The position numbers and the translations under genes were made by a program. 40,608 bases of DNA from Burkholderiaceae bacterium (GTDB lineage Bacteria > Pseudomonadota > Gammaproteobacteria > Burkholderiales > Burkholderiaceae_C). The stretch lies in the NCBI GenBank assembly GCA_013360485.1, contig JABWBN010000011.1:1-40608 (forward strand), written 5' to 3'. How positions within the stretch are numbered: the stretch's first letter is position 1; every line of letters begins with the position of its first letter. Below, piece by piece: positions 5,434 to 23,535 of the stretch. The notes beneath the pieces are model-generated. The model ran no database searches, was not told where the DNA came from, and saw only the letters and a list, made by a program, of their open reading frames with translations.

Positions 5434-6555
5434 ATGCACGCCATGCCCAAGGTCGCGATGAAGATCGCCGTGGCCATCGCCGTCGTCGCCTTGATGCTCG
5501 CGGGCCTGGGCGGTGGGCTGCAGCGCGCCGGCAGCGCCGAGCTCGCCGCGCTGCCGGGAACCGCCGCTGCCTTGCACGCCTGGCTGATGATCAGCGCCTT
5601 CTTCGGCACCGTGATCGGCATCGAGCGCGCCGTTGCGCTGAAGTGGGGCCCCGCCTGGGGAGCGCCCCTGGCCAGCGCCCTGGGCGGCTGGTGCCTGTTG
5701 GCGGCACAGGTGCAGGTCGGCGGCTGGGCGCTGCTGCTGGGCTCGCTGCTGTTCGCCGCCGGCAGCGCCCGGGTGGTGCTGCAGCAGGCCGTCGCCCACC
5801 ATGTGCTGCTGTTGGTGGCCGCGCTGTGCTGGGTGGCCGCCAACCTGCGCTTTGCGCTGGGCACGATGGACGATGCGACGCTGGCCATGGGCCTGGCCTA
5901 CCTGGTCCTGACCATCGCCGCCGAGCGGCTCGAGATGACCCGCCTGATGCAACGCAAGCCGCTGGCACTGGCCGCGTTCGCCGGCGTCGTGGGCCTGCTG
6001 CTGCTGGCGCTGGTGCTCCTGTGGGGCAGCGCCGACGGTAGCCGCGCGCACGCGCTGGCCATCACCGCCTATGGCGCCGCATTGAGCCTCCTGGGCGCAT
6101 GGCTGATGGCCTATGACCTCGCGCGCCGCACGATCCGCACACAGGGGCTCACCCGCTATATGGCCGTGTGCCTGCTGATCGGCTATGCGTGGCTGACGTT
6201 CGCGGGGCTGGCCTGGATCGGGCTGGCGCTGGGCCAGCCCTGGCGCGATGCCGCACTGCATGCGCTGGGCCTGGGTTTCATCATCAGCATGGTGATGGCC
6301 CATGCACCCGTGATCCTGCCGGCCGTCTCACGCTTGAAGCTGGCGTATACACCGCTGTTCTACCTGCCGCTGGCGCTGTTGCATGCCTCGCTGCTGTGGC
6401 GCCTGCTGGGTGAGTTCGTGCTGCCCGGCGCACGCGCGCAGGGCGCCCTGCTGAACGCCTTGGCCATCGTGGCCTTCGGCCTGACCATCCTGCGCGCCGC
6501 GCTGCTGGCCCGCCGCGGCAGCCCGCGACCCACACCCCTGCACACACACCCATGA
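5434..6555 (+). CDS. Polytopic membrane protein, NnrS-like/adjacent family
   Basis: About 12 hydrophobic segments, LHAWLMISAFFGTVIGIERAVAL, GLGFIISMVMAHAPVILPAV; stop overlaps the start of the next gene. Confidence 0.7.
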   Translation: MHAMPKVAMKIAVAIAVVALMLAGLGGGLQRAGSAELAALPGTAAALHAWLMISAFFGTVIGIERAVALKWGPAWGAPLASALGGWCLLAAQVQVGGWALLLGSLLFAAGSARVVLQQAVAHHVLLLVAALCWVAANLRFALGTMDDATLAMGLAYLVLTIAAERLEMTRLMQRKPLALAAFAGVVGLLLLALVLLWGSADGSRAHALAITAYGAALSLLGAWLMAYDLARRTIRTQGLTRYMAVCLLIGYAWLTFAGLAWIGLALGQPWRDAALHALGLGFIISMVMAHAPVILPAVSRLKLAYTPLFYLPLALLHASLLWRLLGEFVLPGARAQGALLNALAIVAFGLTILRAALLARRGSPRPTPLHTHP

Positions 6556-7745
6556 GCACACTCCTCGGCATCGACGAGCCCCCACGCCCGCTGCCGCCCA
6601 AGGGCTACGCCCTGTGGGCGCTGGGCTTCCGCCCGTTCTACCTGTTCGCCGCCGTGTTTTCGGCGTTGTCGATCGCGCTGTGGGCGCTGCAGTTCTCCGG
6701 GCTCATCCCGTTGCCCTACCTGCGCGGACCGGTGTGGCATGCCCATGAAATGCTGTTCGGCTACACGCTGGCCATCATCGTCGGCTTCCTGTTCACGGCC
6801 GGGCAGAACTGGACCGGCCAACCCACCCCCAAGGGTGGCACGTTGGCGGCACTGGTGGCGCTGTGGCTGGCCGGGCGGGTGATGGTGCTCACGCCGTGGG
6901 GCGTGGCTGCAGCTTTGGTGAACGTGGCGTTCCCCCTGGCCGCAGCCGCGGGCATCGCCCGGCCCCTCATCGCGGCGCAGAACAAGCGCAACTACTTCTT
7001 CATCGGGATGCTGGTGCTCATGGCGCTGGCACAGGCGGTCGTGCACGCCGTCCAGTTGGGTTGGTTGACCCTGCCCACGACGATCGGGCTGCAGTTCGGA
7101 CTCGACATCGTGCTGTTCATCATGGCGGTGATGGGCGGCCGCGTCATTCCGATGTTCACCAACAACGGCGTGCCCGGCACGCAGGCCGTGCGCCAACCGC
7201 ACGTCGAGAAGCTGGTGCTGGGCAGCGTGCTGACACTGCTGGCCGCCGACGCCGTGGGCCTGCGCGGATGGTGGTTGCTGCCCTTGCTGCTGGTGGGCAC
7301 CGTCGCCCATGGCGCGCGGCTGTGGCTGTGGCAGCCTTGGCGCACCACGCGCACGCCGCTGGTGTGGGTGCTTCACGCCGCATACGCCTGGATCCCGCTG
7401 CACCTGCTGCTGCGCGCCGGCGCAGAGGTCGACCTGCTGGTCGCGTCGACCGCGACCCATGCGCTGACCGCGGGCGCCATCGGCACACTCACGCTGGGCA
7501 TGATGACGCGCACCGCGCGCGGGCATACCGCGCAGCCGCTGCGCGCGGACCGTTGGGACACGATGGCCTACACGGCGGTGCTGGCTGCCGCGGCGGTTCG
7601 GGTGTTCGTGCCGTTGGGGGCACCTTCGGCGGTCGCAGGCGCCGCGCTCACGTCGGGCCTGCTGTGGTCGGCGGCCTTCGTCATCTACGCCTGGCGCTAT
7701 GCGCCGCTGCTGATACGGCCGCGCGCCGATGGCCGCCCCGGCTGA
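6552..7745 (+). CDS. nnrS: NnrS family protein
   Basis: GFRPFYLFAAVFSALSIALW, GPVWHAHEMLFGYTLAIIVGFLFTAGQNWTG, GGRVIPMFTNNGVPG. Confidence 0.93.
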   Translation: MSTLLGIDEPPRPLPPKGYALWALGFRPFYLFAAVFSALSIALWALQFSGLIPLPYLRGPVWHAHEMLFGYTLAIIVGFLFTAGQNWTGQPTPKGGTLAALVALWLAGRVMVLTPWGVAAALVNVAFPLAAAAGIARPLIAAQNKRNYFFIGMLVLMALAQAVVHAVQLGWLTLPTTIGLQFGLDIVLFIMAVMGGRVIPMFTNNGVPGTQAVRQPHVEKLVLGSVLTLLAADAVGLRGWWLLPLLLVGTVAHGARLWLWQPWRTTRTPLVWVLHAAYAWIPLHLLLRAGAEVDLLVASTATHALTAGAIGTLTLGMMTRTARGHTAQPLRADRWDTMAYTAVLAAAAVRVFVPLGAPSAVAGAALTSGLLWSAAFVIYAWRYAPLLIRPRADGRPG

Positions 7746-10503: not shown

Positions 10504-11418
10504 TCAGGCGCGCCGCAATCGCCTGCACAAGCCGGTGGCCAGCGCCAGCAGAACGGCCGCCAGCAGGCTGTGCAGCACCGTGATGGCCAGCGGCATCGGT
10601 CCAGAACGCATCAGCCAGCCCAGCAGGGGCCCCGAAACCGCGACGGTGGCCAGTGCCATCGCCGGGCCAGGCAGGCTTCGCCGCGCGCCCCAGGCGACGA
10701 CCAGGGCTACCACGACGGTGAGCGCGCCACTGACTGTGTGCAGTTGCAGCACCGCCTGGCGTTGAGGCGCATGCATCGAAGGCGGCAGCGACGCGTTCGA
10801 ACGCATGGAATCGAAGGCGCCAGCGGCATCGGAAGGGAACAACGGACAGTTGCCATCCTGGCAGGCGGCAGCAGCAGAGCGGGCACTGACCAGCCCGCCG
10901 ATCGCTGCCTGCGCCAGCACCAGGACCATCAGCAGCACCACCATGGCCGGTAGCCAGGCCGATGTCGTGGCGCTGGAGTGATTGGCCAGCCGCGGCCGCA
11001 CGAGCATCCAGCCCAGTGCGGCCAGCAGCAGATGACCGCCCAGGAGATTGGCCTGCACCACCACCGGCAACGGCGATGGTGTGTACCTCCCGAGCAGAGC
11101 CAGCCCGACAGAGACGGCCAGCAGCACGAGCGCCGCGCAGCGCTCGCTGTAGCTCCAGCGCCGCCACCCGAACAAGGTGGCCATTAGGAACAGCAACCCG
11201 GCCAGCGACGCCGTGACCCGGTGCGCGAGCCGCACACCGCGATGCCAGCCAGGCACTTGCTCGGGCGTCAGCGACGTCTGCACCGCGTGGTCGGCACGCG
11301 TCTCGTAGCACGCCGGCCATGGCGTGCAGCCCGCGCCTCCCAGCGACAACCGCAGCATCGCACTGGAGACCGCCACGATGAGGGTGAGCGCCGCGGCCAG
11401 CGCCAGCAGCAGCTTCAT
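10504..11418 (-). CDS. ctaA: COX15/CtaA family heme A synthase
   Basis: LSLGGAGCTPWPACYE, WHRGVRLAHRVTASLAGL, VVVQANLLGGHLLLA, LQLHTVSGAL; start overlaps upstream stop (ATGA). Confidence 0.88.
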   Translation of the reverse strand: MKLLLALAAALTLIVAVSSAMLRLSLGGAGCTPWPACYETRADHAVQTSLTPEQVPGWHRGVRLAHRVTASLAGLLFLMATLFGWRRWSYSERCAALVLLAVSVGLALLGRYTPSPLPVVVQANLLGGHLLLAALGWMLVRPRLANHSSATTSAWLPAMVVLLMVLVLAQAAIGGLVSARSAAAACQDGNCPLFPSDAAGAFDSMRSNASLPPSMHAPQRQAVLQLHTVSGALTVVVALVVAWGARRSLPGPAMALATVAVSGPLLGWLMRSGPMPLAITVLHSLLAAVLLALATGLCRRLRRA

Positions 11419-12833
11419 GTGCGCGTGCGCGCCGTGCGCCAGACCACCACGATGAACAACAGGCCGCCGATGATGGCCACCAGGCCCCCGAGGCCCATCA
11501 GGCCCATGCCCGCCACCTCCTGCGGCGTGCGCAGCACCTGGGCCGCGCCGGCCACCTTGCGCTGCACGCCGTAACCTCCCGACCAGACCAGGCCCACGAT
11601 GTGCATCAGCTGACCGGCGCCGTAGATCACCGGCTGCCACACCGCCAGCCGCGACTGCGGCGTACCCAGCCCGAGCCGTGGCATCAACGCGTAGACGGTA
11701 CCCATCATCGCCAAGGTCACGCCGACGATCGAGCCGTGGTAGTGGGCTGGAATGCGCACGTCGCTGCCCTGGATCAGGAAGCCGATGCCACCGCCGATGC
11801 AGAACAGGGCGACCGACGACCACAGCGCCGAGCGCAGTGGCCGTGCCCATTGCGGGCAGCGACCGGCACGGGTGACCCCGATACCCAGCGCCAGCACCAT
11901 TGGCAGGATCGCCAACCCGCCACCGAAGCGCATGAGCCAGGTGAACAGCTTGCTGTGTTCGACGGAGCCCACATCCCAGGCGAGGTAGATCACCGGCGTG
12001 GCGAACACCGACATCAAGGCCACGCCAAACAACAGCAGCACCACCCGCGGAGACAGGGGCACGGGCACCTCCGTCAGCGTTGCCAGCCACAGCCAGCCGA
12101 CCAGCATCAGCAGAGTCCAAGTGAACTGCAGCACGTGTCCAGGGCCCCAGAACAACAGCTCGAAGTAGGTGCGATCCTCGAGCCCCTGCGCCAGCCCGTG
12201 GCGCAAGGCGAGCCAACTCCAGATCTGCGCACCCAGCGTGACGGCTGTGGCCACAGCGGCCGCGTTCAGGCCGAACCGCATGACACCCTCGCCGGGCAGG
12301 CTCAGGCCCACACGCCCAGGGAAGGCCAACGCCCTCAGTGTGACGATGCCCAGGCCCAGGCCGAACAGCACCAGCCCGTACAGGAACATGCGCGAGGTGA
12401 TCACGGGGACGTAGTTGGACATCACCGGTGCGCCGACGTCGATGAACGGCGCCGCGGCCATGGTCATGGCACCGAGCGCGCACAACGCCCAACCGGCCCA
12501 GCCGGCCTCGATCCAGCGAGCGGCGCCGGACAACGACCACAGCGACCCGGCGATGCTGACGAACCACACCAGCACCGACAGGTCGACGTGGACCACCAGC
12601 GCCACATGGAAGAAGTCGACACCTGGCAGCATCGACTGCACGCCGGGTGTGCGCGCTCCCACCAGCAGCACCGCGAACAGCCCGGACCCGACCAGTGCCG
12701 CCACGGCCAGCCAGAGCCAGGCGCGCGCCAACGGCTGCCGATCGTCCGCCGGCACGGAAAAGTCGTAGCGGTACAGCACCAACCCCGCCGCGCGGCCACT
12801 GGGCTCCAACGCCCCGGCCGGTGAAGTCTTCAT
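11415..12833 (-). CDS. Orphan heme-copper oxidoreductase subunit I-like protein
   Basis: FFHVALVVHVDLSVLVWFVSIAG, FWGPGHVLQFTWTLLMLVGW, VEHSKLFTWLMRFGGG, IPAHYHGSIVGVTLAMMGTVYALMPRLG; about 12 TM segments. Confidence 0.82.
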   Translation of the reverse strand: MKTSPAGALEPSGRAAGLVLYRYDFSVPADDRQPLARAWLWLAVAALVGSGLFAVLLVGARTPGVQSMLPGVDFFHVALVVHVDLSVLVWFVSIAGSLWSLSGAARWIEAGWAGWALCALGAMTMAAAPFIDVGAPVMSNYVPVITSRMFLYGLVLFGLGLGIVTLRALAFPGRVGLSLPGEGVMRFGLNAAAVATAVTLGAQIWSWLALRHGLAQGLEDRTYFELLFWGPGHVLQFTWTLLMLVGWLWLATLTEVPVPLSPRVVLLLFGVALMSVFATPVIYLAWDVGSVEHSKLFTWLMRFGGGLAILPMVLALGIGVTRAGRCPQWARPLRSALWSSVALFCIGGGIGFLIQGSDVRIPAHYHGSIVGVTLAMMGTVYALMPRLGLGTPQSRLAVWQPVIYGAGQLMHIVGLVWSGGYGVQRKVAGAAQVLRTPQEVAGMGLMGLGGLVAIIGGLLFIVVVWRTARTRT

Positions 12834-13357
12834 CGGATGCTGATGCCGCCTTGGTCGGCCTTGAAGTCGATCAGGACAATCTGCCCCTCGCGAACCGTGA
12901 CTTCGGCGCTACGCTCAAAGGTGGGCGCACCGGGACGCAGGTCGTCCTTGAAGTGGACCCGCAGGCGGTGGGTGCCGGCGGCGATGGGCGTGCGCCAGTA
13001 CCCGCTCGCGGCGCCGTCCTGTGCCAGGCCGGCGGGCCGGAAGCTGCGGTCGATGAGAATCTTGTCGTCGACCTCGACCCGCGCCTGCACCGGCGAGCGC
13101 GTTCGCTGGCAGTCCTGGGCTGCGCGCATCTGCGGCGGCATCTTGGCCAATTCCTCGGCAGTGCGCTGGCGACAGTCGGTGGCGAACTTGCCGGGGTGGC
13201 TGAACGACAGGCGCAGCAGGCCGTGGCCCGGAGGCAGCAGCGAGACCGGGGGCTGCGAGGCAAAGTAGCCCACGAACGCGGCGAACAACGCGTACAGCAC
13301 GATCTGGCCGGTCCACTGAAGCGGACCGAGTCGCTGTTTCGGCAGGGTTTCAGTCAT
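12830..13357 (-). CDS. Uncharacterised protein with one N-terminal TM segment and a predicted periplasmic beta-rich domain
   Basis: MTETLPKQRLGPLQWTGQIVLYALFAAFVGYFAS...; ATGA overlap with the downstream gene and overlap with the upstream stop. Confidence 0.7.
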   Translation of the reverse strand: MTETLPKQRLGPLQWTGQIVLYALFAAFVGYFASQPPVSLLPPGHGLLRLSFSHPGKFATDCRQRTAEELAKMPPQMRAAQDCQRTRSPVQARVEVDDKILIDRSFRPAGLAQDGAASGYWRTPIAAGTHRLRVHFKDDLRPGAPTFERSAEVTVREGQIVLIDFKADQGGISIR

Positions 13358-14936
13358 CGGAGTTCTCCTGGATGGGTAGAGTATCGAGGCGATCGCGCCA
13401 CTGAGCGACTTGTTCGGCCAAGGCCTCACCCTGTTCGCGGGCGGCCCAGACCAGATGCACACGGTCGCGCGACACCTGCGCCCGCAGGTGGGGCATGCGT
13501 TCGCCGGCCAGGCGCTGGGCGGTCCATTGGGGACCGAGCCGGTACTCGCAATCGCCCGGCGGGCAGCCGGTGACCAGCACGCCATCGGCGCCGTGCCGCA
13601 GCGCATACTCAATGAAGACCGGTGGCCAAAATGCCGTGCAGGCCGACGCGATCATCTGAACGCCTGGCAACGGTTGCGGCAACCGTGCGGCATGCTCGCA
13701 ACCGAGCACCAGCACCCGCGGGTGTGGCTGAGCTTCGAGGTGCTTCAGCGCAGCATCCAGTCGCTCACGTTCGCCTTGCAGCGGTGTACCGGGCAGGTCG
13801 ATGCCGGTGGTCACAGCGGCGCTGCGCCGAAACGGCGTGGCCGAGGGGCAGGCGCCGACGCACACGCCGCACGCTGCGCAAAGATCGGGGTCGACCAGAG
13901 CCATGCGCGATGCGGGGCGCAACGGATGGGGCACCATGGTGACCGCGGCATAGGGGCAGTCCTGCAGGCACAACGTGCAGCCGTTGCAATGCACGGGATC
14001 GACCACCGCGGGTGGGCCAACGCGAGCAGGTGCAACGGCGCCCGGCTCAGTTGCGGCGCGCCCCTGGCGCGACCTTGGCAACCAAGGCAGGGCCACGAGG
14101 AGCACCGTGGCCAACACCAGCACCGACCACGTGAGTATCGGCGCGCGATCGGCCAAGGGCAAAGCGACGAGGTAGAACCAGTCCAGGTCGACCGCCATCG
14201 GCTGGCGGCCCGGGTCGGCGCGCGGCATCGACAGGGCCGGCCAGAACAGCGCCAGCAGCATGAGGGTGATGAACGTGCCAGCGGCCAGCCGCCGATGCGG
14301 CTGTGTCTGGGGGCGCGCCAACCGCACGATATGCACCCACAGGCCCAGCAGCAGCAGCAAAGGCACCCCGATGTGCAAGAACGCGAGCAGACTGAAGAAC
14401 CGGTCGGTCACCGCCTGGGCATCGAGGAAGTTGCGCACGACCTCGAGGGTCACCCCGGGCAGCACCGACATCCACTCGAGCACGGAGACGCCGACGTACA
14501 GCGCGCGCTCGTCCCAGACCATCCAGTAGCCGATGATGCCCGAAATCACGGCCAGCCACAGCAGCGGCACGCCGCTGACCCAGGTGAACCAGCGGAACGC
14601 GCGGTAGCGGCCCATCAGAGCCTCGCGCAACAGATGCACGGCGCTGACCAGCAACAAGGCGTCGGATGCATAGCGATGCAGGCCGCGCATCAGGCCACCG
14701 GTGTACGGTTGGTCCGCGTTCATTTCGTGGACCGATCGCCATGCACCGTCGACGCTGGTCTCGTAGAGCGCGTAGATCCAGAAGCCCGAGGCGACCACGA
14801 TCCACAGCAGCCAGACTGCCAGCGCACCCAGTTGGCGCAGCGGATTGGCTTGGCAGCCGAACACACGATCGAAGCCCTGCTCCACACGGCGAACCAGCCG
14901 CACGGCAGCCGCGTCGGGCGCAGCTGGCACCATCAC
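13350..14936 (-). CDS. Fusion: cytochrome b N-terminal (PetB-like) + 2x[4Fe-4S] ferredoxin + MvhD/FrhD-type hydrogenase iron-sulfur domain
   Basis: GLMRGLHRYASDALLLVSAVHLL and FLHIGVPLLLLLGLWVHIVRL (four heme His); CNGCTLCLQDCPYA and CAACGVCVGACPSA; RVLVLGCEHAARL...ADGVLVTGCPPGDCEYRLG. Confidence 0.88.
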   Translation of the reverse strand: MMVPAAPDAAAVRLVRRVEQGFDRVFGCQANPLRQLGALAVWLLWIVVASGFWIYALYETSVDGAWRSVHEMNADQPYTGGLMRGLHRYASDALLLVSAVHLLREALMGRYRAFRWFTWVSGVPLLWLAVISGIIGYWMVWDERALYVGVSVLEWMSVLPGVTLEVVRNFLDAQAVTDRFFSLLAFLHIGVPLLLLLGLWVHIVRLARPQTQPHRRLAAGTFITLMLLALFWPALSMPRADPGRQPMAVDLDWFYLVALPLADRAPILTWSVLVLATVLLVALPWLPRSRQGRAATEPGAVAPARVGPPAVVDPVHCNGCTLCLQDCPYAAVTMVPHPLRPASRMALVDPDLCAACGVCVGACPSATPFRRSAAVTTGIDLPGTPLQGERERLDAALKHLEAQPHPRVLVLGCEHAARLPQPLPGVQMIASACTAFWPPVFIEYALRHGADGVLVTGCPPGDCEYRLGPQWTAQRLAGERMPHLRAQVSRDRVHLVWAAREQGEALAEQVAQWRDRLDTLPIQENSDD

Positions 14937-15934
14937 GTGCTCCGTGGCCGCCGCAACTCCCGAATCATGAACCAGGCGAGGGCACCCAAGAACGTGATGC
15001 CGCAGAACAGTTCGAAGAACAACGAGTAGTTGAGCTTGTAATTGCCGCTGGAGGGGTCGTAAACCGTGCAGTACAACTTGACCTTCAGCCAGATGTTCTC
15101 CACCGACAGCCGTTGCGCGGCCTCGCCGGACATCACAGCCTTTAGCGGCCCGATGAACTGCGGCAGGTCGATGGTGTCACCATAGACCTGCGCGGCAATC
15201 ATGCCCTGTGCGTCGACGATGGTCGCCTGCGTGATGTGATCGAAACCCTTGGGCGTGGCGGTGTAGCTGAATCCGAAGGCACGCAGCAGCGCCGGCACGT
15301 CGTCGGTGCGGGGGCTCAGGAATCGCCAGCGTTCGTCGACGATGCGTGCCTGTCGCGCAAACGCGCCCATCGCCTCGGGCGTGTCGAAGGGCTGGTTGAA
15401 TCCAATGCTCAGCACATGGAAGCCATCCGCGCCGAGTGCCGTTCGGGCAGCCGCCACGGCCTTCATCAATCCCTGGGTGGCCACCGGGCATGCCTGGTAG
15501 CAGCCGGTGTAGACGAAGCTCACCACGACCGGCTTGCCGCGCAGGTCGGCCAGCGTCAAGCGACGATTCTGATGGTCGGTGAACACCATGGCCTCGACCG
15601 GCCCGAGGGGCTGGCCGATCACCGCCTGACTGGCCTGAAGCGCGGCGTTCCAGCCCGCTGCGACCTCGGGCGCCACGCCAGCGCCCTGCGCACGGACCGC
15701 ATGGCCGACGCACGCGAGCAGGACGACCAAGCCTGCCCAGATGAGTCGCCAGGCGGCATGTGCCAAAGGCCGAGTGTGACGACGCGCGCGCGCCGGCCAA
15801 CCCAGCGAACAGGACCCGCCCGGCTGTTGCCAGCCGGCGGGGCCCTGCGTGGGATATGGGCCATCCGTCGAGCGGGTGGCTCCGCGGTGCCGGCCACCGC
15901 CGGCGACGGTGGCCGACTGCGGGAGGGGGGTCAT
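14933..15934 (-). CDS. SCO1/SenC family copper chaperone with C-terminal TM extension (start uncertain; could be internal near 15.77 kb)
   Basis: LRGKPVVVSFVYTGCYQACPVATQGLMKAV with CxxxCP, VLSIGFNQPFDTPEAMGAF; C-terminal LNYSLFFELFCGITFLGALAWFMIRELR. ATG at 15934 overlaps the ctaB stop. Confidence 0.88.
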   Translation of the reverse strand: MTPLPQSATVAGGGRHRGATRSTDGPYPTQGPAGWQQPGGSCSLGWPARARRHTRPLAHAAWRLIWAGLVVLLACVGHAVRAQGAGVAPEVAAGWNAALQASQAVIGQPLGPVEAMVFTDHQNRRLTLADLRGKPVVVSFVYTGCYQACPVATQGLMKAVAAARTALGADGFHVLSIGFNQPFDTPEAMGAFARQARIVDERWRFLSPRTDDVPALLRAFGFSYTATPKGFDHITQATIVDAQGMIAAQVYGDTIDLPQFIGPLKAVMSGEAAQRLSVENIWLKVKLYCTVYDPSSGNYKLNYSLFFELFCGITFLGALAWFMIRELRRPRST

Positions 15935-16794
15935 GCGATAGCGGCGTCGACCATCACGCCGATCAACACCAGCGACAGCTCGACCAACGATGCCGCAAAA
16001 CTGCGCATGGCACGGGAGCGGTTGGGCTGCAACTGCAGGCGCAATGCCTCGACCACGAACCAGATACCGCCCAACGCAGCCAGTACCGTGGTCACCCAGC
16101 CGCCCGACATCAGGCCCAGGGCCACCGTCAGGATCAGCAGGGCCACGGCATGGCCCGTGATGGCCCAGGCTGCGATCCGGTCGCCCTTGGCCACCGGCAG
16201 CATGGGCACACCAGCAGCGGCGTAGTCGTCGCGAAATGCAATGGCCAGGCTCCAGAAGTGCGGCGGTGTCCACAGGAACAGCACGATGGTCAGCAGCCAG
16301 GCTTGCGGCGACAGGGCCGGATCGACCGCAGCCGCTCCGGCCAATACGGCAAAGCTGCCTGCCAGGCCGCCAATAACGATGTTCCACCAGGTGCGGCGCT
16401 TGAGCCACACCGTGTAGACCACCGCATATACCAGCGCACCAGCCACCGTGTAGATGGCTGCCGGCCCGTTGCTGATGGACCAAGCGACAAGCCCGGACAG
16501 CAGCACCATCGCGATGATCAGGGCCAGCCATCCGGCATGAGGCGTGAGCGCCCCGGTAGCGAACGGTCGGCCCTTGGTGCGCTTCATCAGCCGGTCGAGG
16601 TCAGCCTCCCACCACTGGTTGAAGGCCCCCGCGGCGGCCGAGGCCACCAACACGCACAGGAACAGCAGCGCCACCCCCGCCCAGCCGGGCCCGCGCCCGG
16701 GCTGGACCGCCACGCCGCCCAGCGCGGTGACGGCGATCACCACCCCGATGCGCAGCTTGAACAGCGAGAACAACTCGCGGGTTGCGATGCTCAT
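15931..16794 (-). CDS. ctaB: Protoheme IX farnesyltransferase (heme O synthase)
   Basis: GAFNQWWEADLDRLMKRTKGRPFATGALTPHAG, LFLWTPPHFWSLAIAFRDDYAAAGVPMLPVAKG. Confidence 0.95.
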   Translation of the reverse strand: MSIATRELFSLFKLRIGVVIAVTALGGVAVQPGRGPGWAGVALLFLCVLVASAAAGAFNQWWEADLDRLMKRTKGRPFATGALTPHAGWLALIIAMVLLSGLVAWSISNGPAAIYTVAGALVYAVVYTVWLKRRTWWNIVIGGLAGSFAVLAGAAAVDPALSPQAWLLTIVLFLWTPPHFWSLAIAFRDDYAAAGVPMLPVAKGDRIAAWAITGHAVALLILTVALGLMSGGWVTTVLAALGGIWFVVEALRLQLQPNRSRAMRSFAASLVELSLVLIGVMVDAAIA

Positions 16795-16810: not shown

Positions 16811-18514
16811 TCAGCTCAGGCCCCACACCGTGGACAGGTACTTCCAGTTCACGAAGTAGTAGAGCACGAACGCACCCAGGAACACGAGGGCGAAGACGAA
16901 GGTGCCCGGGACGCCGACATGGGCTTCCTGGCCGCCATGCCCAGTCAGGGCGCTGGCCACCGGCATCTTCAGCACCGTACCCTTGGTGGAGTAGGTGCCT
17001 TCGTCGAGCTTCTTGCCGAAGAGGATGGTGAGCACGGTCAGGCCGATGTAGATCGCACCGCCGACAACGGCGGCAACGCCCGACACCCCGACGATGGCCA
17101 TCATCAGCCACGCAGACCCCGGGAACTCATAGGGCAGCGCGGTACCGGCGAAGCTCATGTCCCAGTGGCGGCGGGGTACACCCAGCGTACCGGCACCCAT
17201 CATGGCCAGGCAGAACACCCCCATGCCACCGCCGAACAGGTAAGGCTGCCACTTGGCCAGGCCAGGCATCAGCACCTCGCGGTTGAACAGCGTCGGCAGC
17301 AGGAACCAGGTCAGCGACATGAACGCCAGCGTGGTACCGATCACGACCGTGGCGTGGAAGTGGCCCGGCACGTAGATGGTGTTGTGGATCAGCATGTTGA
17401 GCTGCTCCGTACCCATCATCACGCCGGTGATCCCTCCCAGGAAGCCGAAGCCGATGAGCGAGATGAACATGCCCGAGAACACCGGGTTGCCCCAGGGCGC
17501 CTTGCGGATCCACTCGAACAGGCCCTTGGTGTAGCCCTTGCGACGCTGCGCGGCTTCGATGGCACCCGGCACGGTCAGGCCGTGGATCATCGACGCCAGC
17601 ACCGCCAGGTACATGGCGTAGCTGGTGTTGAAGACCTTCCACTCGACCGACAGGCCGGGGTCGGACAACAGGTGGTGCGCGCTGGCCAGTTGCAGGAAGA
17701 AGATGTACAGGGTGAAGGCCATGCGCGACACACGCTCGCTCATCGGCTTGGCGCCGAAGACGATGGCGGCGATGGCGTACCACACCGCGATGTGCGCGCT
17801 GACGTTGATCTGCTGCGACGAGTGACCGAAGGCCCACCAGATCGTGCGGTACATCAGCGGATCGATGGTCTTGATGTAGCCCAGCGACCACAGGAAGGTC
17901 GGGATCAGGATGATGGCGCCCGAAGCGATCGTGAAGATCGCGATGATGCAGGCGGTCATCGCCCCGAAGGTGACCAGCGGGATCGAGCCTTCATAGGTCT
18001 TCTCTGCCTTGGCCACGACCAGCGTGCCCAGGAAGATGAAGCAGGCGATCAGCGCGCCGACGGCGAACAGGATCAGGCCCAGGTAGAAGGCCGGGTGCGC
18101 CGGCAGCGGCACGTAGGAGGTCATCATCACCGTCGCGTTGCCGGTGAAGATGGCCACGTTGAACGTGACGGCGCCGATGATCATCAGCGCAAATGCGAGC
18201 CAAGCCAGCTTGGGTGTCGCCAGTCGACATCTCAAGAGCGTTGACGAGCAGAAGTAGAGGATCGCCACCTCGAAGAAGATGATCCAGACCACCAGCATGT
18301 CCAGGCCGTGGGCCGTGAGGATCATGTAGAAGGTGTCTGCACCCACCAGGTGCACCGCTTGCCAGCGCGTGAGCGTGATCAGCAGTGCGAGGACGCCCCC
18401 GACCAGCAGCGCCACCACGGCCGCGACTGCGTTGAGCTTGATCAGCCCCTCGGCCGACTTGTGATATTGAAGCCCCGTGCGGGGGCAGATGCGGAACAGG
18501 TCCGTGCTTGCCAT
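16811..18514 (-). CDS. Heme-copper oxidoreductase subunit I, predicted nitric oxide reductase type (Gln at active-site Tyr position)
   Basis: Six metal-ligand His conserved: TAHGLDMLVVW (H69), FGHSSQQINVSAH (H231), ASAHHLLSDPG (H280/H281), VPGHFHATVV (H385/H387). Position +4 from H231 is Q235. Confidence 0.88.
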   Translation of the reverse strand: MASTDLFRICPRTGLQYHKSAEGLIKLNAVAAVVALLVGGVLALLITLTRWQAVHLVGADTFYMILTAHGLDMLVVWIIFFEVAILYFCSSTLLRCRLATPKLAWLAFALMIIGAVTFNVAIFTGNATVMMTSYVPLPAHPAFYLGLILFAVGALIACFIFLGTLVVAKAEKTYEGSIPLVTFGAMTACIIAIFTIASGAIILIPTFLWSLGYIKTIDPLMYRTIWWAFGHSSQQINVSAHIAVWYAIAAIVFGAKPMSERVSRMAFTLYIFFLQLASAHHLLSDPGLSVEWKVFNTSYAMYLAVLASMIHGLTVPGAIEAAQRRKGYTKGLFEWIRKAPWGNPVFSGMFISLIGFGFLGGITGVMMGTEQLNMLIHNTIYVPGHFHATVVIGTTLAFMSLTWFLLPTLFNREVLMPGLAKWQPYLFGGGMGVFCLAMMGAGTLGVPRRHWDMSFAGTALPYEFPGSAWLMMAIVGVSGVAAVVGGAIYIGLTVLTILFGKKLDEGTYSTKGTVLKMPVASALTGHGGQEAHVGVPGTFVFALVFLGAFVLYYFVNWKYLSTVWGLS

Positions 18515-18532: not shown

Positions 18533-19072
18533 TTACTTCACGTACAGCTTGGACACCATCTTGTGGTGGCCGATGCCGCAGAATTCGTTGCAGACGATGG
18601 CGTAAGTGCCAGCCCGGTTGGGCGTGATCGTCACCACGTGCTGGTAGCCCGGGATCACCTGAATGTTGATGTTCTCCGGCTGCAGCGAGAAGCCGTGCTG
18701 GTAGTCCATCGAAGTCAGGTGCAGGCGGTAGGTCTTGTCCTTCTCGAGCTCGAGCATCGGCCACCATGCCCACAGGCGAGCCACCAGATAGACGTCGGAG
18801 CCAGCCGGCGGCTTGACGACCGGAATCTTCTCGTCGGTCTCGGTGCGCACGGTGTACTTGTCCACCATTTCCTGTGCAGCGCGCGAGAACTGCTCGGGCT
18901 TGACCTTGTAGGTCTCGGTGGAGAGGTTCTGCCTGCCGTACAGATGCCAATACGGCATCATGAAGAACATCACCATGCACCAGGCAAAGGCGATGAGGAC
19001 CCAGAGGATTTCAACCCTGTCGATCGGTTGTTTCCACCAGATTCGTTGTTCGGGCGGGAGGATGGCACTCAT
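18533..19072 (-). CDS. Cytochrome c oxidase subunit II-like CuA protein
   Basis: Single N-terminal TM; CuA motif YAIVCNEFCGIGHHKMVSKLYV with upstream His (SMDYQHGFSL). Confidence 0.92.
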   Translation of the reverse strand: MSAILPPEQRIWWKQPIDRVEILWVLIAFAWCMVMFFMMPYWHLYGRQNLSTETYKVKPEQFSRAAQEMVDKYTVRTETDEKIPVVKPPAGSDVYLVARLWAWWPMLELEKDKTYRLHLTSMDYQHGFSLQPENINIQVIPGYQHVVTITPNRAGTYAIVCNEFCGIGHHKMVSKLYVK

Positions 19073-19087: not shown

Positions 19088-19264
19088 CTACTTGGCCAGC
19101 GGGCTGATGGGGATGCCCGCGATCTCCATCACACCCCACAGCGTGTAGAGCACGGTGGGCAGGGCAACCCCGACAAACAGCAGTAGGAAGGGGTTTTCCA
19201 GGAACTGCTGCATCGCGGGGATGCGTTCTTCCTCGTTCGTAGCGGCTTCTTTGTCATTGGCCAT
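19088..19264 (-). CDS. Small single-TM protein (58 aa), first gene of the oxidoreductase operon
   Basis: MANDKEAATNEEERIPAMQQFLENPFLLLFVGVALPTVLYTLWGVMEIAGIPISPLAK; directly upstream of subunit II, same strand. Confidence 0.7.
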   Translation of the reverse strand: MANDKEAATNEEERIPAMQQFLENPFLLLFVGVALPTVLYTLWGVMEIAGIPISPLAK

Positions 19265-19326: not shown

Positions 19327-19340
19327 TTGAAATGCGTCAA
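19327..19340 (-). promoter_or_regulatory. Candidate FNR/DNR box for the minus-strand oxidoreductase operon
   Basis: TTGAAATGCGTCAA fits TTGA-N6-TCAA. A TAGATT -10-like hexamer on the minus strand (19304-19299) places the box centre at -41.5. Confidence 0.6.
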
Positions 19341-19384: not shown

Positions 19385-19398
19385 TTAATCCAGATCAA
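19385..19398 (+). promoter_or_regulatory. Candidate FNR/DNR box for the plus-strand cytochrome b-ferredoxin reductase gene
   Basis: TTAATCCAGATCAA (one mismatch to TTGAT-N4-ATCAA), 56 nt upstream of the GTG start; weak TAGCGT -10-like hexamer at 19422-19427. Confidence 0.55.
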
Positions 19399-21390: not shown

Positions 21391-22089
21391 CTACTGCACC
21401 TGGTAGGTCGACAGGCGGCGCACGTCCAGGATGCGGATGTCGCGCTTGTCGACCTCGATCAGGCCGGCAGTCTCGAGTTCGTGCAGCACGCGCGAGAAGT
21501 ACTCGGGCGTGAGCGACAGGCGGGACGCGATGGTGGCCTTGCTGACCGGCAGGGACACGGTGATGGTTTCGTGCGTCGCGCAGTCCTCGACCTCCTGCTC
21601 GCGCAGCAGGTAGCCGATGACGCGCTGCGTGCCGCTGTGCAGGGCATAGGCCTCCACATCGTGCACCAGGCCGTGCAGACGCCGCGAAATGCCGGCCAGC
21701 ATGCGCAGCGCGAACTTCGGTTCACGCTCGATCTCCGCCAGCACCGCCTGCTTCTTCACCACCAACAGCAGCGAGTCGGTGAGCGTCTGGGCGTTCAGGA
21801 TGTAGGGCTTGCCGGTGAACATCAGCGCCTCGGCGAAGCTGTTGCCCGGCCCGATGAGCTCGATCACCTTCTCCTGCCCGGACGGGGAGATGGCGAACAG
21901 CTTGACCTGTCCGATCACCGTGACATGGAACTCTTCACACGGCTGACCGACGTGGAACACCATGTCGCCGCGTGCCAGCCGGCGCAGTTGGCAGCCCAAC
22001 GCCAGACGCTCGAGCTCGGTCGGGCTCATCTCATTGAAGAGCGGCAGCACCGACAGATAGCGCGGCAGGTCGAATGAGCGGGACTCCAT
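21391..22089 (-). CDS. dnr: Crp/Fnr family transcriptional regulator, DNR/NnrR-like
   Basis: cNMP-binding fold, C-terminal HTH with TPEYFSRVLHEL (ExxSR as in FNR); lacks the N-terminal FNR Cys cluster. Confidence 0.85.
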   Translation of the reverse strand: MESRSFDLPRYLSVLPLFNEMSPTELERLALGCQLRRLARGDMVFHVGQPCEEFHVTVIGQVKLFAISPSGQEKVIELIGPGNSFAEALMFTGKPYILNAQTLTDSLLLVVKKQAVLAEIEREPKFALRMLAGISRRLHGLVHDVEAYALHSGTQRVIGYLLREQEVEDCATHETITVSLPVSKATIASRLSLTPEYFSRVLHELETAGLIEVDKRDIRILDVRRLSTYQVQ

Positions 22090-22158: not shown

Positions 22159-22172
22159 TTGATAATAGTCAA
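22159..22172. promoter_or_regulatory. Candidate FNR/DNR box upstream of the dnr-like gene
   Basis: TTGATAATAGTCAA (TTGA-N6-TCAA), about 70 nt upstream of the Crp/Fnr start. Confidence 0.5.
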
Positions 22173-22242: not shown

Positions 22243-23535
22243 CTACCGCTGCGATCGGGCGCCTGCGCGAGCAGTGATGAACCAGCGCCCGTAGCGCAAG
22301 GCCCAGCCGGTCGCGGCCATGGCCCAGAACAGTGCTGCCAGTTGCGCGCCTGACGCCCCCACCGCGGGATGGGTCGGGGCCAACCAGGCGCCCAGCACAC
22401 GCGCCGCTGCCGCCAATTGCGCCAGCCAGAACAGCCCCCAGGCATACCCGTCGGCCACCACGGCACGGCCGTGCTGCGCGCAGGCGACCCGCGTCACCAT
22501 CGCCAGCATGATGCTGCCCATGAAGCCCAGGGCCAGTGCGTGCAGCGACGCCAGGACGGCGCCCGCCGCCCATGGCGTTCCCGCACCCAGGTCGCCAAGC
22601 GCCTGCAGCGCCAGCGCGATGGCCAGCCACACCACGCCCGCGTAAAGCATGGCCACCAAACGGATGCGCACGTTCTGCACCCAGGCCCAGTGCCCGACCA
22701 TGGCGGCCACGATCACCGCTGCGGCCAGCGCGCAGCCACCGCGGACCAGGGCGACCATGGGCGAGCCGCCCGCCGCACCGGGTGCCGGCAACCAGACCCC
22801 CGGCGCTTGCGCGGCCATCAGGCTGGTGACGATGATGGGCATGACGCCAGGCCAGCGATGCTGGAGTGCGGGCCAGGCGCCGGCCGCGAAGTACGGAACA
22901 AGACGGTGGGCCGCCGCCATGAACACGACACCATGGCCCGCCCACAGGCTGGCGCGCACGATGAGGGGCACCGCCGACGCCTGATCCGAGGCCACACACA
23001 GAGCTGCGGCCAGGAGTGCCGCAACGCCGGCGGCCTGCCCCAACAGCAACAGACGCACATGCAAGCGGTCGCGGCTGCCACTGGCGCGGATCCAGATGGC
23101 CAGCCGCCACAGCGCCGCCGCCAGGCAGAGCGCCACCAGCGCCAAGCCAGCAGCAGCGGCCGCCTTGGCCACGTTCACGCCGGCGAAGACCAATGCCCAG
23201 CCTGCCAACATGCCGCCCACCGGCACCAGCAGCTGGCGCGCCGGCACCGGTGCCAGCCCCATCCAGCGCGGCGCACCGGTGCAGGCAAAGCCCAGGAAGA
23301 AAAACGGCATGAAGCCGTGCGCCATCAACAGGGCATGCGCACCGGCGGGCGGCACGGCCCAGGGCAGCGCTATGCCTGCAGCCCGAGTCAACAGCACCGC
23401 GAGCCACCACAGTGCCGTGGCGGCCAGCATCAGGGCGCCGGCAAAGAAGGCCAGGCGGTGTGGCGCATCCAGCAAGTGGCGCAACGAGCGCCGGCTTGGT
23501 TGCGCCCTCGCCTGCGGCCGCCCGGTGCCGCTCAC
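22243..23535 (-). CDS. nnrS: NnrS family protein
   Basis: HALLMAHGFMPFFFLGFACTGAPRWMGL, LWAGHGVVFMAAAHRLVPYFA, SLHALALGFMGSIMLAMVTRV. Confidence 0.88.
   Translation of the reverse strand: MSGTGRPQARAQPSRRSLRHLLDAPHRLAFFAGALMLAATALWWLAVLLTRAAGIALPWAVPPAGAHALLMAHGFMPFFFLGFACTGAPRWMGLAPVPARQLLVPVGGMLAGWALVFAGVNVAKAAAAAGLALVALCLAAALWRLAIWIRASGSRDRLHVRLLLLGQAAGVAALLAAALCVASDQASAVPLIVRASLWAGHGVVFMAAAHRLVPYFAAGAWPALQHRWPGVMPIIVTSLMAAQAPGVWLPAPGAAGGSPMVALVRGGCALAAAVIVAAMVGHWAWVQNVRIRLVAMLYAGVVWLAIALALQALGDLGAGTPWAAGAVLASLHALALGFMGSIMLAMVTRVACAQHGRAVVADGYAWGLFWLAQLAAAARVLGAWLAPTHPAVGASGAQLAALFWAMAATGWALRYGRWFITARAGARSQR

Follow-up and report, generated by a model that had tools for sequence, protein, structure and literature searches.

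Subunit I of the heme-copper oxidoreductases (HCOs) is among the best-studied folds of bioenergetics and is nearly always treated as a catalytic subunit. In the ba3 oxidase it carries three CuB histidines and a cross-linked tyrosine. NnrS is a further multi-transmembrane (TM) heme protein of NO metabolism. The eNOR family is marked by a glutamine replacing the cross-linked tyrosine together with a cupredoxin (CuA-type) subunit II (PMC8756737), and its subunit I resembles the B family (Hemp and Gennis 2008, cited by PMC8756737). Accessory proteins of heme A oxidase assembly include DUF420 proteins, Surf1 and CtaG, whose genes occur with ctaA/ctaB and COX clusters (PMC8239418). We describe here a protein that belongs to none of these accessory families, being itself an HCO subunit I paralogue in which the HCO fold and both heme sites are retained and the CuB site (two of three histidines) is lost. 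Searches of open-access literature, which did not extend to the main NOR survey, found no publication on its family or on CuB-less or subunit I-like proteins.

The window, a stretch of 40,608 nucleotides, contains an operon of nine genes running from 19264 down to 10504, of which the subunit I-like protein is encoded by the eighth and a CtaA/Cox15-like protein X by the last (Table 1). The subunit I-like gene shares 4 nt with each of its neighbours, namely the small gene, whose end lies at 12830, and the CtaA-like gene, whose start lies at 11418. The enzyme encoded upstream combines a GHSSQQ motif, a retained CuB histidine pair (HH) and a CuA subunit II, which makes it an eNOR-type enzyme, with predicted NO reductase activity and presumably an A-type heme. 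The fusion of cytochrome b, ferredoxin and FlpD/MvhD is unusual; it is conserved among eNOR operons, which often carry it in duplicate. The small periplasmic protein matches no Pfam family, and its confident structure model gave no informative fold match. In an alignment, relatives of protein X keep three of the four heme histidines (H66, H227, H283) and two Cys pairs, while the second heme histidine is mostly Met or Leu and the catalytic glutamate (E57 equivalent) is missing. A CtaA variant with E57K and H123N occurs in betaproteobacteria such as Accumulibacter (PMC8239418), and the two are possibly the same group.

Two FNR/Dnr-like boxes lie upstream of the operon, and a perfect TTGAYNNNNRTCAA box stands 70 bp upstream of the start of a Crp/Fnr-type regulator; upstream of solo family members such boxes were found at one site in 20, not a clear enrichment. 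A qNOR-like protein of 759 aa, a cbb3-like oxidase and an A-type oxidase (types taken from length and score) are encoded in the same genome, which also has d1-heme (nirS-type) genes.

Table 1. Operon genes, residues of the subunit I-like protein and other features of the window
Feature	Position	Strand	Basis or remark
58-aa single-TM protein, first operon gene	19088-19264	minus	sequence
CuA subunit II (CNEFCGIGHHKM)	18533-19072	minus	Pfam COX2 and sequence; CuA motif complete
eNOR-type subunit I; helix VI GHSSQQ (Gln for Tyr), helix VII HH kept	16811-18514	minus	sequence, Pfam
CtaB, heme O synthase (UbiA family)	15931-16794	minus	Pfam
SCO1/SenC copper chaperone	14933-15847	minus	Pfam; start uncertain
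Diheme cytochrome b + 2[4Fe-4S] ferredoxin + FlpD/MvhD fusion	13350-14936	minus	Pfam, sequence
Small periplasmic protein, one TM helix + beta domain	12830-13357	minus	ends 4 nt inside the start of the subunit I-like gene
HCO subunit I-like protein, CuB site lost	11415-12833	minus	single ORF, ATG start, 472 aa
H82, helix II (VVHVDLSVLVWF), low-spin heme ligand	12588-12590	minus	aligned to H69 of eNOR-like subunit I
H233, helix VI (GPGHVLQF), sole CuB-type His kept	12135-12137	minus	profile alignment, conservation
I282-Y283, at the positions of the CuB His pair of helix VII	11985-11990	minus	profile alignment
E292-H293, start of helix VIII, variable	11955-11960	minus	AF2 model, family alignment
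H364 (high-spin heme) and H366 (low-spin heme), helix X PAHYHG	11736-11744	minus	alignment, conservation
CtaA/Cox15-like protein X	10504-11418	minus	Pfam COX15-CtaA 2e-18; 4-nt overlap with the subunit I-like gene
FNR/Dnr-like box, upstream of operon	19327-19340	.	1 mismatch
Second FNR/Dnr-like box, upstream of operon	19385-19398	.	1 mismatch
Crp/Fnr-type (Dnr-like) regulator	21391-22089	minus	named from sequence
Perfect box upstream of the regulator	22159-22172
NnrS	6552-7745	plus	Pfam 1e-109
NnrS	22247-23535	minus	Pfam 4e-44
370-aa multi-TM protein	5443-6555	plus	no Pfam or NCBIfam family

Fold and metal sites of the subunit I-like protein

The preliminary description had read the gene as an HCO subunit I-like ORF with about 12 TM segments, and the ORF, its COX1 match and the AlphaFold (AF2) model agree with this. 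The ORF is a genuine gene of a family that is conserved but uncurated. Its match to Pfam COX1 (PF00115) is full-length but weak (2e-6, residues 36-441), scoring 27.3 bits and so under the curated cut-off of 34.8 bits; all 62 aligned family members match PF00115 at 0.01 or better, and none of the 62 matches an HCO model of NCBIfam at E 0.01 or better. The AF2 model (mean pLDDT 90.7) has 12 TM helices, and its best solved match is the B-family ba3 oxygen reductase subunit I (PDB 3s8f, 1ehk; TM-score 0.70-0.73), with 3s8f the top Foldseek hit (E 3e-9); of the CuB histidines of ba3 the protein retains one. A PDB search with the single sequence gave no match and one with its profile a single weak match. 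NnrS (PF05940) is a different Pfam family, and the protein matches COX1, not NnrS. Both hallmarks of the COX1 superfamily, the 12-TM fold with a profile match and the bis-His low-spin and high-spin His ligands, are found in the protein, which is an HCO subunit I paralogue. Annotation pipelines that score COX1 matches can mistake it for an oxidase.

Residues were assigned through a profile alignment with the operon's own eNOR-type subunit I (hhalign probability 99.7, 26% identity, 428 columns); the distal pocket was judged by alignment alone. The two proteins share the fold and their heme ligands align one to one (H82-H69, H364-H385, H366-H387), as does the CuB-type histidine (H233-H231). R425-K426 aligns with the RR propionate loop of eNOR. 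Across the conservation set (153 homologues and the window protein, 3 of these being eNOR strays) H233, Q236, W229, Y141, H364 and H366 never vary and H82 does so once; R425 is near-invariant in about 150 members. The three strays, apparent members with Gln at 237, are eNOR subunit I and were excluded. Since the motif residues are conserved throughout the family, they are not there by chance, and the earlier reading of a helix II histidine, a GPGHVLQF motif with Phe at H+4 and a helix X AHYHG, with both heme ligands kept, holds family-wide for H82, H233/F237, H364 and H366.

The CuB side is altered. F237, four residues beyond H233, occupies the position of the cross-linked tyrosine, and the invariant Q236 lies at +3. 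The CuB pair H280-H281 of the eNOR-like subunit I aligns with I282-Y283, and positions 282-283 are HH in no true family member of the conservation set. An EH had previously been placed where the helix VII pair is expected; the pair is indeed missing, but the residues named are the wrong ones. As modelled helix VII (262-285) stops at 285 and helix VIII begins at 291, E292-H293 forms the first turn of helix VIII, and H293 is conserved in only 15 of 28 family members. Because the helix VII pair position is I282-Y283 and is never His-His, two of the three CuB ligands are gone. The label of degenerate metal-site motifs fits CuB but not the heme sites, which are intact; the alignments show no normal HH site, which would have spoken against it. 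Two of the CuB ligands are missing throughout the window's clade, where I/A/T282 with Y283 is the usual combination and leaves one CuB-type histidine. The invariant heme-site residues and the missing HH together suggest that the protein, at least in this clade, probably binds both hemes but no CuB.

The protein is probably not a terminal enzyme. It differs from eNOR-type subunit I in the missing helix VII pair, in a Phe where that protein has the Gln/Tyr position, in a length smaller by 95 residues and in having no subunit II. Three features of catalytic HCOs are absent, namely a three-His second metal site (H233 only, with I282-Y283 for HH), an active-site Tyr, Gln, Glu, Asn or Asp near CuB (Phe at +4, with the Gln at +3 instead) and a co-encoded electron-entry subunit (CuA or heme c). 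As the preliminary description noted, no subunit II or III accompanies the protein; the operon's one subunit II precedes the eNOR-like subunit I.

Distribution and gene neighbourhoods of the family

The family is widespread, with at least 584 related stretches confirmed in a GTDB scan, one of the matches listed coming from Nitrospirota (L150). It was found in 59 of 399 genomes of a phylum sample and in 36 of 274 class genomes at 1e-3, or 29 of 274 at 1e-30, a cut-off that leaves out matches to eNOR itself; the plasmids searched gave no match. A widespread family that keeps its heme sites and drops CuB would naturally test what the fold does without copper.

Linkage to eNOR is strong. Among the matches listed, the eNOR subunit I, the cytochrome b fusion and the small protein adjoin the gene in 54 of the 80 closest loci, and the protein marks the operon of a poorly studied NO reductase family. 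In a tree made by a quick method, with several long branches that limit how finely it can be read, the window falls in a clade of 35 rows (support 96), 34 of them from eNOR or module contexts. Within the 274 class genomes eNOR occurs in 22, the family in 29 and both in 17 (Fisher p = 2e-15). The family is nevertheless not an obligate eNOR partner, since eNOR is missing from 12 of the 29 family genomes and the family from 5 of the 22 eNOR genomes, these five being at least 95% complete; the absence from these five also places the protein outside the eNOR catalytic core. In the two such genomes whose operon was read (L067:13966-15458 and L069:2261-3814), the slot of the missing gene, next after the small protein, is taken by a hemerythrin-like gene and a ctaA. 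The names hemerythrin, ResB, CcsA, RpoH, NirJ and NirF rest on inspection of the sequences rather than on curated searches, and gene calls beyond the window come from a simple ORF picker. A role in serving eNOR only was abandoned given the family genomes without eNOR, the eNOR genomes without the protein and the other neighbour contexts.

A further 28 loci keep the cytochrome b module or the small companion with no eNOR in view; most relatives are MAGs and some contigs are short, so that loci with the module only may hide eNOR. Outside the eNOR and module contexts, ctaA, ctaB, SCO, cox2, cox3 or DUF420 genes are neighbours in 32 cases, ResB/CcsA in 7, rpoH in 2 and none of these in 19. When loci were thinned to representatives below 72% identity, 16 of 28 outside eNOR and module loci lay within 400 bp of ctaA, ctaB or ccsA, as did 13 of 36 within them; with genomes having one to three matches to CtaA, we estimate that well under 1% would be expected by chance. 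Gene pairs with CtaA recur in distant loci (L210, L211, L212, L050, L195). ResB and CcsA are proteins of system II cytochrome c synthesis, and six of the seven members adjoining them form their own divergent clade in the tree, the seventh being a long-branch row. In the sister clade beside them (L062, L213, L214, L215, L216, L224) H411 is lost. The two members adjoining rpoH (L047, L048) are solo family members of the same class.

Proposed role and alternatives

In many bacteria the family adjoins genes for making or delivering modified heme, and in denitrifiers it sits in the eNOR operon, and for this reason a heme-carrying helper seems likelier than a second enzyme. With a probability of about 0.48, just short of even, we propose a bis-heme, copper-less HCO-like accessory protein in heme handling and in the maturation of eNOR and heme-A oxidases. 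The membrane protein would carry heme and thereby link heme modification or delivery (CtaB, the CtaA-like protein) to the assembly of heme-A-type HCOs, which in the window's operon would be the eNOR-type nitric oxide reductase. We infer its heme occupancy, the transfer step and the partner. In support, genes for CtaB, SCO and a CtaA-like protein are part of the operon, the last of them overlapping the gene. The neighbouring genes of the family point to an unsolved step, the route by which modified heme reaches subunit I. Against the proposal, some members lie near no heme gene (the rpoH neighbours and the 'other' group), and shared regulation or a general clustering of HCO-related genes could also bring the family close to cta genes. 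Of the roles first proposed for the protein, heme binding and the tie to the upstream enzyme are supported by the invariant ligands and the closest loci, and the assembly option gains from the ctaA, ctaB and ccsA/resB neighbours. Co-occurrence with the Gln-type subunit I had been offered as a check, with frequent separate occurrence counting against the tie, and such occurrence is largely what the genomes show.

More speculatively, and rather improbably, the CuB-less paralogue and the CtaA-like protein might act together, the paralogue receiving heme or accepting the electrons of heme O oxidation, such that A-type heme is made or loaded during NO respiration with little or no oxygen; the ResB/CcsA sister clade would then be an equivalent for cytochrome c synthesis.

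That H233 and Q236, distal to the high-spin heme, are strictly invariant also speaks against a passive carrier, which would not need the ligand binding that this suggests. An NO-binding subunit, whose open high-spin heme would bind NO as a sensor, buffer or supply for eNOR in denitrification, is an unlikely reading, favoured by this invariance, by the operon linkage and by the genome co-occurrence with eNOR. Of the 29 family genomes 22 have nirS-type (d1-heme) proteins, compared with 6 among 32 hand-picked controls, and d1-heme biosynthesis genes adjoin a homologue in L045 and L059, a richness that fits an NO-linked role equally. The protein has no soluble signalling domain, however, and neither the ResB/CcsA clade nor the CtaA/CtaB neighbours carry an NO link. 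Seven family genomes lack a nirS-type gene, among them G083, G116, G213 and G232, which have an A-type oxidase.

Less probable again is an electron-transfer partner in which the two hemes relay electrons among the quinone pool, the cytochrome b-ferredoxin protein, the CtaA-like protein X or eNOR, for example by accepting electrons from heme oxidation by the CtaA-like protein. The retained bis-His low-spin heme, the diheme cytochrome b/Fe-S/FlpD fusion preceding the gene and the loci that keep module or companion with no eNOR in view (some on short contigs) are all consistent with such a relay, but electron transfer alone leaves the joint conservation of H364, H233 and Q236 unexplained, and eNOR already has its own CuA subunit II. 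The second catalytic centre with altered CuB suggested in the preliminary description, reducing NO or O2 alone at a site of H233 and Q236 with His at 239 or 283 in some clades (14 of 19 'other' members and 9 of 31 'Cta' members carry His at 283, and His is frequent at 239), is very improbable despite the invariance of H233 and Q236, given the single CuB-type histidine in most of the window's clade, an HH pair in no true member and no subunit II or other electron entry belonging to the protein.

Two NnrS proteins flank the eNOR operon in the window. Adjoining one nnrS gene is that of the 370-aa multi-TM protein, relatives of which are found near eNOR operons in L096 and L109.
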